A stretch of DNA of 36,247 nt, from positions 1 through 36,247 of IMG/VR virus record IMGVR_UViG_3300011114_000528; one strand, written 5' to 3'. Below, piece after piece: positions 1,239 to 4,833 of this stretch (its first letter is position 1; the number at the start of each line of letters is the position of its first letter). The notes below the pieces were generated by a model. It searched no databases and had not been told where the DNA came from. It worked only from the letters and a program-made list of their open reading frames with translations. Made by a program: the position numbers and the translations under genes. Source of the stretch: a virus.

Positions 1239-2543
1239 TTACTGCTCCTTTTTGATATAAAAGACTGCATTTTGCTGATCGTGATTTGACCAGATCAATT
1301 CATAACCGGCTAGTTTATCCAGCCACCAATGGTACGGAAACACCGATAAATGCAGCGGTTGACCGATCAATGCGCCCATGTTATCAGGCACAAGGCTGAT
1401 CTGGAAGAATGCTGAATCAACGCATTCCATGATGTTTTTTATCACGGAATCAACGTTTTCAGGCGAAATGTGTTCCATCACATCGGTGCAAAATCCAATG
1501 TCTCCGGTGATGTGAATGGGCTTTGTCAGATCCGCAATCGTCAGAGGGAATTTGACATCTTTATCAAGGCAATTTTCTGAGAAATCCACCAGCTTCATGT
1601 TGGCGCCGGTCAGCTCTTGAATGCGTTTCGCACCTCGACCCGTCCCGCAGCCAAAGTCTACAACAACGGTTCTTGCCTTTATTCCGGTGACTTTGGCAAA
1701 TGTTTCCGCTATCAGTTCGCCGGGAGCGGTATCCCGATACGCCGGAATGGACCACATTTTCCGGTACTTTTCATCCTCGGCCATTGGCGCCGAATTGCGC
1801 CGCATCTCGTTGACGACTTCCTTTATAAGACCATCGCCATCGACCGTGATGATGCAATCCAGATCAATCAGGTTATTGCAGACTGAAGGGAACAGCTCGG
1901 CCTGCCGCGCCATCGTCAGAGAGCTGGTGAATACTTTCCCTCCGATTGTGACCTTGCACAGCACATCGTGATCGTTTAGCGGCTGACGGTAAGCGTGACC
2001 CATCGTCTGACGGTGAGAGGAGTCATAGCCGAACAGGTGGAGCTTGCGGTAGCCGAGCGTGTACGCCAGGCACATCGACGACAACCCGACCGTGGTGCCG
2101 CCCCCGATCAAGGCGTATTCGTCCTTGTATTCAGGCAGGTGGTTTTCCAGCCCTTCAATGGCCGGGTGCCAGGTTGTAATCTCGCCCCCGATCGCTTCAA
2201 AGAGCGTCGGATGGCATTGCGAGGAAATCAGATATTTTTCTGCTTTCCCGATCAAATCAATGTTTTCTGCCCGAGCGTCAAGGATGACCTGATATTCCGG
2301 CACGATCCCGTAACGGTTAAGAAACTTTGCCGCTCCATTGAGCGCGAAAATCGACTGTCCTAATGATCGACGTTTTTCGATCATTGGCAGAAAATCAGCA
2401 ACAGAAGGACCGCCGCCCACAAGGATCGCGTGACCATCATGGGCGGGGACCTGTGAGACCCAACGCGCACAGGATCTTGAATTTAGTCCGACATTGCCAA
2501 AGATCTCGGCATCGTCGGTGTTGCAAATGATTTCAATATCCAT
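1239..2543 (-). CDS. DUF115 (MptE-like) domain fused to a class I SAM methyltransferase
   Basis: A 434-residue two-domain protein. Residues about 35-240 resemble DUF115/6-hydroxymethylpterin pyrophosphokinase MptE-like proteins, a fold also related to motility accessory factors that handle sugars: LVGGGPS at 41-47, a VILDARAEN segment near 86, and FGYDSSH at 171. Residues about 255-434 form a Rossmann methyltransferase with the SAM loop VDFGCGTGRG at 295-304 and DVMEH at 354-358. The ribosome site is weak. It sits inside the virion operon between a decoration-like gene and the fibre paralogues. A role in modifying a virion or cell-surface glycan is an inference; the substrate is unknown. Confidence 0.85.
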   Translation of the reverse strand: MDIEIICNTDDAEIFGNVGLNSRSCARWVSQVPAHDGHAILVGGGPSVADFLPMIEKRRSLGQSIFALNGAAKFLNRYGIVPEYQVILDARAENIDLIGKAEKYLISSQCHPTLFEAIGGEITTWHPAIEGLENHLPEYKDEYALIGGGTTVGLSSMCLAYTLGYRKLHLFGYDSSHRQTMGHAYRQPLNDHDVLCKVTIGGKVFTSSLTMARQAELFPSVCNNLIDLDCIITVDGDGLIKEVVNEMRRNSAPMAEDEKYRKMWSIPAYRDTAPGELIAETFAKVTGIKARTVVVDFGCGTGRGAKRIQELTGANMKLVDFSENCLDKDVKFPLTIADLTKPIHITGDIGFCTDVMEHISPENVDSVIKNIMECVDSAFFQISLVPDNMGALIGQPLHLSVFPYHWWLDKLAGYELIWSNHDQQNAVFYIKKEQ

Positions 2544-2591
2544 GCGAGATTGCGAGCCAGAGCGTCCCCCGACCCGCTTTCCTTTCGTTGA

Positions 2592-3125
2592 TTAAGTGAT
2601 GCGGCCTTGCAGATGCGGTCGGTTCATCACCACATTCACCGTGGTAGTTGCCGAGGCAACCGTTGCGGCATTTGCGGTACGGGCGCCGAGAATCTCTTTG
2701 CCCGAACCCGTTGCACCGACTTTACCCGTCGATTTCACACCGACCGCAACGGTCGCCGCAAAATTAGACGAAGTAGATTTCGCGCAAACCGCAGTACCTT
2801 CGATCTGATACCAGCCAAAAGAACCGGCAAGATTCGCAGACATTGCAACCGCAACCGGGCGAGCCTGGTTGGAAGTCGTTGCAGCAAGGGTCGTCTGATA
2901 GGTAGTGCCGTCGTAGGTGACCAGCGAACCTATAGTCGTGCCTGCTACGCCGACCAGCAGGATGAACTCACCTGCGCCATAAGTCGGATCGAAAGCGCGT
3001 TCGACCTGACCCAAGACCGCCGGAGGAGTCGGGATTGCACTCGTTCCGTTGGCCATCGTTACGCCAGCATCAGTCACCGCAATTTGCAGAAGACCGGCTT
3101 TGTTATCGTCAAAAGTGTATGCCAT
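2592..3125 (-). CDS. Putative capsid decoration/structural protein
   Basis: A 177-residue protein encoded immediately after the major capsid exon 2, with a GGAG site before the ATG at 3125. It is rich in Ala, Thr, Val and Gly with alternating hydrophobics, suggesting an all-beta virion protein. There is no signal peptide, membrane segment or enzyme motif. A capsid-cementing or decoration role is the usual function of a gene in this slot but is inferred from position. The stop at 2592 is followed by a 48-base gap before the methyltransferase gene. Confidence 0.75.
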   Translation of the reverse strand: MAYTFDDNKAGLLQIAVTDAGVTMANGTSAIPTPPAVLGQVERAFDPTYGAGEFILLVGVAGTTIGSLVTYDGTTYQTTLAATTSNQARPVAVAMSANLAGSFGWYQIEGTAVCAKSTSSNFAATVAVGVKSTGKVGATGSGKEILGARTANAATVASATTTVNVVMNRPHLQGRIT

Positions 3126-3137
3126 TTTATGTCTCCG

Positions 3138-4058
3138 TTAGGCGATCAGCACGCCGCAGAACTGCGGCCCGCTGGAAGTCAGATTGCCCGCCCAGCCGAC
3201 CAATTTCACGACGGCGTCTTGGTTAATGGCTTGACGTTCGCCACCGATCGGGACGAAATTCCGGTCAGCGTGCGGCCTGAACATCATGTACTTGGTGTTC
3301 AAGAACCACATGTGATTAGCGGTCGCGGCAGAGCCGATACCACCATCAAGCACCACATCGGATGCCATGCCCGCGCCGTAGTATTTCAGCGAAGCGAATC
3401 CAGCCCCGGCAGTAGAGCTGCCCGAGTCGGAAATGCGCTGAATCGACTGAAGCGATTGCAGGTACAGACGATAGTAGTTGTTGTCGGCGACGATCAAATC
3501 CGGCTTGTCCGTTCCGCGAATCAACTGAACCGCAAGCGAGTCCATGTACTGCTGGATGTTGGATGCAGTAACAGCCGAGCCACCATCGGTGGTGCCCGAA
3601 TACTTAACCGAACGCCAGAACGAGAACGTAGCGCGGTTAATGCCGCCGTAAGTTCCGGTGCTAGGTGCGTCAGGAACAGCCGCGCCGAGGCCGGTGATGT
3701 TCTTGCCGCTGTTGCCGGTTCCATCAAGATAGATGTCCGAACCGATACGGTTAGCCAGTTGCGCCTCGGCAACGTTCATCCGACCGTCAAGCAGGTCAAT
3801 GATCGCTTCCTTGCCGCTGTTCTGGATCATTTCCAGACCGCTGATGGAAATGGCAGAAGCGTACTGGGTGATCGAGAACTGAGCAGCCGAAATCGGGCTG
3901 TTCTGGCTGACGTTCAGCACTTCATAACCCGAGTAAGAGTTCGTGTTATTCGTCGTGCTGTCGTTGTACATAATTTCCTGAAGGATGACGTTACCGCCGG
4001 AAAACGTTTTAACGTTCCCGCGTTCCTTCAAGCGCCGCAGAAGTGCATTGTTGTTTGT
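3138..4058 (-). CDS. Major capsid protein, exon 2 (codons 28-333); joins 4753..4833
   Basis: This exon encodes the bulk of the phage major capsid protein, starting in sense with TNNNALLRRLKERGN, the conserved arm that normally follows LADNV in this family. The family also shows GGNVILQEIMYND and later GGERQAI. An in-frame ATG at 4103 would give a 321-residue product, but its first 15 residues are unlike the family, because they are translated intron. The boundary at 4058 is set by the family alignment I know and by the required terminal G of a group I intron at 4059. The spliced product is 333 residues, a usual length for this capsid family. Confidence 0.9.
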   Translation of the reverse strand, partial: TNNNALLRRLKERGNVKTFSGGNVILQEIMYNDSTTNNTNSYSGYEVLNVSQNSPISAAQFSITQYASAISISGLEMIQNSGKEAIIDLLDGRMNVAEAQLANRIGSDIYLDGTGNSGKNITGLGAAVPDAPSTGTYGGINRATFSFWRSVKYSGTTDGGSAVTASNIQQYMDSLAVQLIRGTDKPDLIVADNNYYRLYLQSLQSIQRISDSGSSTAGAGFASLKYYGAGMASDVVLDGGIGSAATANHMWFLNTKYMMFRPHADRNFVPIGGERQAINQDAVVKLVGWAGNLTSSGPQFCGVLIA

Positions 4059-4752
4059 CCTGGTGTTACGTTTCGGCTCTTTATCCGAAACCTGCACATT
4101 CATTTTATGTGCAGAGCAGACTATCTCATCGCAAGTTTTTCGCTAACTTGGTGGCGCTAATTTTTGCGCCATGACCTTTCGGCCTTCCAAGCTGCGCCAA
4201 TCTACGCTTCATGTTGCTTTCCGCGCTAGGCCGGTAGCCGTTCGCTACTCTTGCCGCTGCTGCCTTTGCTGGAGCATCCGGGGGTGGTCTGAAAGACAAT
4301 TCATTGTCATTTAACAACAAACCTTGCACCCGATAATGCTTCATCCAAGACAACTCGCGCTCGCGTTTTTCAATCACCGAAACTTCTGCTGGCATTGTTT
4401 CAAGAACCTTCATCTGAAACTGTCCAGCGTGATCGTTCCACGCTTCCTGCAACCTTTTAGAACTATGCTTACCGGCTTTTAATAAACTTCGATGCTCTCG
4501 CATCCTTTTGCCAGGTCTTCCTGCTGTGCAGCCTATATAAGCCGCGCCGGTACTTGCATCTTCTAAACCGTAGATTGTCACCATTTGGGATTCCCCTCTG
4601 TGGATAATACTTGCGCTCCGCGCTCGTGGGGTTCAGCTTCCGCATCGCCCTAGTCGTTACACCTTCAGCGCCCTTTTAACTGCGCCGCTTGGCTCGGTAT
4701 TGGCATCTCAGCTTTTTACCGAATTCACGGAGTTTTATAACGTCTATTGTTA
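4059..4752 (-). ncRNA. Group I self-splicing intron in the major capsid gene
   Basis: A 694-nt intron in phase 0 between Val27 and Thr28 of the capsid protein. In the minus-strand RNA, 5' exon AACGUU (4758-4753) pairs with guide GACGUU (4744-4739) as P1, giving the required U.G pair at the splice site. GACUA (4655-4651) pairs with UAGUC (4123-4119) as P7. CGCAAG (4615-4610) pairs with CUUGCG (4135-4130) as P8. CUGCACAU/AUGUGCAG (4114-4092) forms P9 and GUUUCGG/CCGAAAC (4091-4070) a second 3' hairpin. The last intron base is G. A stop codon UAA follows codon 27 directly, so splicing is needed for capsid synthesis. P3-P6 were not resolved by eye, and the subgroup is not assigned. Confidence 0.93.
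4126..4584 (-). CDS. GIY-YIG homing endonuclease (intron-encoded)
   Basis: A 152-residue protein in the loop of intron stem P8. The N-terminal GIY-YIG nuclease domain shows TIYG at residues 3-6, AYIG at 15-18, a basic GKRMREH segment, and a catalytic-type Glu in VIEKRERELSW. The C-terminal half is basic and ends with a NUMOD3-like AKISATKLAKNLR segment typical of DNA-binding tails of intron endonucleases. The last codons overlap the 3' strand of P8, so the ORF is embedded in the ribozyme fold. A GAGGGG site lies before the ATG. The expected target is the uninterrupted capsid gene at the codon 27/28 junction. Confidence 0.93.
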   Translation of the reverse strand: MVTIYGLEDASTGAAYIGCTAGRPGKRMREHRSLLKAGKHSSKRLQEAWNDHAGQFQMKVLETMPAEVSVIEKRERELSWMKHYRVQGLLLNDNELSFRPPPDAPAKAAAARVANGYRPSAESNMKRRLAQLGRPKGHGAKISATKLAKNLR

Positions 4753-4833
4753 AACGTTGTCGGCCAGCTCACCGGTGCGACTTTGGATATTCGTCGCAAT
4801 GATGTCGCTGATCGAGCTATTGGCGAAGGCCAT
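4753..4833 (-). CDS. Major capsid protein, exon 1 (codons 1-27); joins 3138..4058
   Basis: The first 27 codons of the capsid protein (MAFANSSISDIIA through GELADNV). This N-terminus is characteristic of the capsid family continued in exon 2. An AGGAG site lies eight bases before the ATG at 4833. The next in-frame codon after GTT is TAA, inside the intron, so this stretch alone would be a 27-residue peptide. That is too short for ordinary gene calling, and it would be missed. The scaffold gene ends 20 bases upstream, in the normal scaffold-capsid order. Confidence 0.9.

Follow-up and report, generated by a model that had tools for sequence, protein, structure and literature searches.

A probable mobile group I intron carrying a GIY-YIG endonuclease gene interrupts the major capsid gene of an uncultured phage

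The window, meaning the whole 36,247-nt stretch of viral DNA analysed here (IMG/VR record IMGVR_UViG_3300011114_000528), carries a major capsid gene in two parts, and all features of the window described below lie on its minus strand. Exon 1 (4753..4833) has 27 codons, MAFANSSISDIIATNIQSRTGELADNV, with an AGGAG ahead of it at 4845-4841 and AACGTT as its last six bases. Exon 2 (3138..4058) has 306 codons plus a stop, and was identified as a major head protein by its match to phrog_9953 (E 2.4e-98). The first codon of exon 2 aligns with position 29 of this profile, and the ~28 profile residues that are absent at its start match the length of exon 1. Between the exons lies a group I intron of 694 nt (4059..4752); its first base is the U that follows the U.G pair of the splice site, and its last is a G.

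A preliminary description of this DNA had placed a 694-nt insertion between capsid codons 27 and 28. This was borne out by intronless relatives such as L002, in which the exon 1 and exon 2 sequences are contiguous at exactly that codon. Intronless alleles, found by protein search and with a degenerate pattern, join codon 27 directly to codon 28, and 694 nt is the exact difference between them and the window. Splicing at the predicted exon-exon junction, GACAACGTT-ACAAACAAC (peptide GELADNV-TNNNALL), would yield a product of 333 aa, the same length as the L002 major capsid protein, whose predicted model matches HK97-fold capsids. As modelled from this intronless homologue, and by the phrog_9953 match, the predicted spliced product is a member of the HK97-fold major capsid proteins. 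A UAA directly follows codon 27 of exon 1, as had also been described, so that unspliced RNA gives only a 27-residue peptide. A single capsid match was found within the 36-kb record, which is possibly incomplete, and a second capsid gene could lie outside it. No named phage gave a megablast match to window positions 1-25000. Metagenome-assembled bins of six capsid relatives (L153-L158) are labelled Lysobacterales, Armatimonadetes, Chloroflexota, Acidithiobacillales and Pseudomonadota; because these labels are mutually discordant, no host is claimed.

The insertion contains the P3-P7 pseudoknotted core together with P4, P6 and P8. P1 is formed by the last exon 1 bases (AACGUU) and the internal guide sequence GACGUU (4739..4744), which make a six-pair helix ending in the U.G. 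P3 pairs CUCCGUG (4726..4732) with CGCGGAG (4616..4622), P7 pairs GACUA (4651..4655) with UAGUC (4119..4123), and P8 pairs CGCAAG (4610..4615) with CUUGCG (4130..4135). The P9 hairpin (CUGCACAU/AUGUGCAG, 4092..4114) forms in the window, and inspection by eye shows it in relatives as well; it lies outside the pair count given below. The P9.1 hairpin (UUUCGG/CCGAAA) occupies 4071..4090. The preliminary description had listed the same P1, P7, P8 and P9 pairings and a final G, and all of these were found in the window.

Pairing was counted for P1, P3, P4, P6a, P7, P8 and P9.1 as drawn on the window, that is, for 42 pairs in 28 homologous introns or 1176 cells. In these aligned sequences the pairing of the proposed helices exceeds chance, because 95.8% of the cells form standard pairs, compared with 34.7-41.0% in all controls in which the partners were slid by 1-3 columns. 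The slide control keeps the relatedness of the rows; a shuffle control does not provide a probability, because the rows are related. Changes on both sides were seen in 29 of the 42 pairs, exon-guide pairs among them. P1 is 100% paired, with double changes in five of its six pairs and the U.G in 28/28 introns. P3 and P9.1 are likewise 100% paired (double changes in 4/7 and 4/6 pairs, respectively), P7 is 99.3% paired, P8 is 93.5% paired with double changes in 6/6 pairs, and P6a has 92.9% of its cells paired; the core formed by P3, P4, P6a, P7 and P8 shows covariation. P4 is the weakest helix (85.1% of cells paired) and aligns poorly in some of the 28 homologues; its weakness is at least partly due to the aligner misplacing P4 in distant members. 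The 28 nt between the 5' strand of P7 and the 3' strand of P3 contain a further stem that covaries by eye (for example GGUGG/CCACC, GGCAG/CUGCC and GAUGG/CCAUC) and stands outside the formal count, the aligner having misplaced it. Extra P7.1/P7.2 stems at this place are a feature of subgroup IA, to which the intron, with its putative extra stem, probably belongs. A P10 pairing with the 3' exon was also looked for, and no convincing pairing was found.

The preliminary description had proposed a search with the Rfam group I model. The default gathering scan of the window gave no match. At a relaxed threshold, RF00028 matches 4762-4610 over the full model length at 23.7 bits (E-value 0.0012 when 1 kb is searched and 0.043 for the whole window), which is below the gathering score of 50 bits. 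That score is a cut-off set by curators for searches and does not describe the mechanism. It is exceeded by homologues that sit at the same codon and share the core, with 63.7 bits for L139 and 72 bits for the ORF-less L301. The match in the window ends before the ORF in P8 without reaching the true 3' half, and the weak score is likely due to this ORF stopping the model match. A score below gathering is also what might be seen in a dead or trans-acting relic, a ribozyme that no longer splices in a phage that is defective or reliant on another capsid gene. We consider such a relic very improbable, since the window retains every helix of the catalytic core, L081 has an almost identical intron, exon and intron are still constrained, and a second capsid gene was not found in the record.

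The end of exon 1 differs between occupied and empty alleles. Among 154 empty ones, Val27 has A as its third base in 61, G in 61, C in 24 and T in 8. The last exon base is thus U in 8/154 empty alleles versus 36/36 occupied ones (Fisher p 2e-31), the occupied loci in this test being taken from the endonuclease search only, because the occupied-site pattern scan itself requires AACGTT. P1 needs this U at the exon end for the U.G pair. L144, L145 and L146 have the intron shifted by one codon towards the 3' end of the gene, with a guide sequence altered to fit the exon bases found there (GUGUCU/GGACAC in L144 and GUCUCU/GGAGAC in L145). The terminal G is present in every homologue examined, and the base preceding it is variable.

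Exon 1 has a pN/pS of 0.078 among 17 close intron-bearing alleles and of 0.30 over all 34 intron-bearing alleles, distant ones included. This persisting purifying selection bears on a different explanation, according to which a free-standing endonuclease gene split the capsid gene and translation of the capsid now skips exon 1, starting at an in-frame ATG near the end of the intron (4103). An open frame does lead from this ATG into exon 2 in the window (ORF 3138-4103), but a Shine-Dalgarno sequence is not evident ahead of it, and L015, L050, L053, L089 and L096 have a stop three codons upstream of exon 2 and no start codon after that stop. Together with the selection on exon 1 and the covariation of the ribozyme core and of the exon-guide pairing, this makes a start at 4103 highly unlikely. 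An intein or a translational bypass element could also account for an insertion with an endonuclease in a conserved gene. Both are contradicted by frame and stop, as the length of 694 nt cannot be divided by three and the insertion opens with UAA, and the RNA structure covaries; we give them a negligible chance. The known translational bypass in phage T4 gene 60 spans about 50 nt.

The ORF in the P8 loop (4126..4584) encodes 152 aa and, as the preliminary description had it, sits between the P8 strands; it overlaps the 3' strand of P8 with its last codons and ends within J8/7. The protein matches Pfam PF01541 at 25 bits (cut-off 22.6). A 20-member endonuclease profile searched against the PDB found only the I-TevI catalytic domain (1MK0, E 3.7e-12), and the predicted fold matches I-TevI with a TM of 0.88 on the target. 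Residues Y5, R27, H31, H40, E77 and N92 are invariant and correspond to the I-TevI active site. By family, as judged from sequence and predicted fold, the ORF product is an I-TevI-like GIY-YIG homing endonuclease. The group I intron in td of phage T4, whose host gene encodes thymidylate synthase, also opens with UAA after the exon. The window intron resembles td/I-TevI in this UAA opening and in a GIY-YIG endonuclease of the I-TevI catalytic fold, and likely also in homing. The linker and DNA-binding part are longer in I-TevI, whereas the window endonuclease has a C-terminal part that ends in a conserved KRRLAQLGxPKGHGAKISATK motif.

Upstream of the ORF, a three-pair hairpin (GGG-GAAU-CCC, 4587..4596) covers the endonuclease Shine-Dalgarno region. 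It is paired in 84/84 cells across 28 sequences, with compensatory changes in two of its three pairs, a modest signal given that there are three pairs only. T4 introns hold back endonuclease translation by such a hairpin, and the analogy suggests that the hairpin here may limit translation of the endonuclease.

The occupied-site pattern finds this insertion in 75 contigs, and there are at least 120 empty sites. In 64 of the 75 contigs the downstream capsid exon 2 is readable, and the other 11 run off the contig end. Among the 64, an endonuclease is present in 59, none was detected in 4, and 1 is cut before this could be judged. Three relatives (L132, L138 and L135) have capsid exons 91-96% identical to those of the window and an endonuclease only 46-50% identical, and the endonucleases of other relatives are ~78-92% identical to that of the window. 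This patchy occupancy and the mismatch between intron and exon divergence fit mobility or horizontal replacement of the intron.

We are highly confident that the single major-capsid gene detected in the record is split by a mobile group I intron, that its splicing would yield the 333-aa capsid, and that its endonuclease would drive homing. Splicing, cleavage activity and homing themselves are what we infer from the sequences, as follows. The pre-mRNA would fold into the ribozyme, which would use guanosine to cut after the exon 1 U that forms the U.G in P1, and exon 1 would then be joined to exon 2 after the terminal G to give the capsid reading frame. The GIY-YIG endonuclease would be translated from unspliced RNA and would cut capsid alleles that lack the intron at the conserved site encoding DNV-TNNNAL; repair by recombination would copy the intron and flanking exon bases into the cut allele. 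The proposal in the preliminary description of a mobile group I intron with a P8 GIY-YIG endonuclease, on whose splicing capsid expression would depend, is well supported at this level.

The preliminary description had also called a capsid gene an unusual host for such an intron, and this was partly right. Mycobacteriophage LittleE has an intron in its major capsid gene, the splicing of which was shown by RT-PCR and protein N-terminal sequencing (PMC3706429). As cited in the LittleE paper, lactococcal phage Tuc2009 has a group I intron in its capsid gene and is in that respect like the window (PMC3706429). In LittleE, as in the window, the major capsid gene holds a probable group I intron that contains an endonuclease gene, the exon ends in U, the intron ends in G, and intronless relatives exist (PMC3706429). 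The LittleE intron is 819 bp and has an HNH/LAGLIDADG-like ORF on the opposite strand (PMC3706429), whereas the window ORF is GIY-YIG, on the same strand and in P8. The LittleE phage and its host are unrelated to the window phage. With capsid-gene introns already known, and common in relatives of the window phage, the window element represents one more insertion site of an ordinary mobile group I intron. As a case that is well documented and backed by RNA structure, it adds to the examples of an essential, abundant phage structural protein that would depend on an RNA enzyme.

Further insertions were surveyed in 349 partly redundant capsid loci, with loci overlapping between searches. When exons are joined at U/G boundaries, the conserved protein sequence is regained near L002 positions 53, 61, 66, 68, 71, 72, 83, 108, 145 and 151, and by eye there are further insertion positions near L002 105 and 309. 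These site counts are approximate, with some boundaries ambiguous and those of L144 and L104/L161 set by eye. The Rfam gathering threshold is exceeded at several additional sites (L089, L182, L206, L332, L257, L349 and L144). The L144 capsid gene has three Rfam-detected group I introns (2766-3528, 3683-3933 and 4076-4294, with 31.9, 41.9 and 50.1 bits), and L104/L300 has three insertions in one capsid gene. A second intron type, shorter and ORF-less, was found at L081:2507-2738 and also in L170, L257, L193, L195, L104 and L161. It gave no Rfam match where scanned, and it has P1, P3 and P7 pairing, with P3 and P7 strands that covary. Besides its window-like intron, L081 has one more insertion at codon 151.

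From this survey it is likely that, in this group of uncultured phages, the capsid gene is a hotspot for group I introns, with about 10 or more positions, at least two intron types and up to three introns per gene. If this is so, the structural protein made in the largest amount would require several self-splicing events in series. What looks new is this multi-position, multi-type interruption of the capsid gene in uncultured relatives, outside the window; a literature search, with most subscription papers beyond its reach, found no precedent for capsid genes with several group I introns. The intronless, intron-bearing and multi-intron relatives allow tests of the splicing efficiency that is required, of whether splicing times late expression and of the spread of homing through capsid genes. 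In L136, a second capsid insertion of 1027 nt (2156-3182, approximate) lies nine bases upstream of the L083 insertion site; by eye, its core is group I-like, and its opposite strand carries an apparent zinc-finger/HNH-like ORF.
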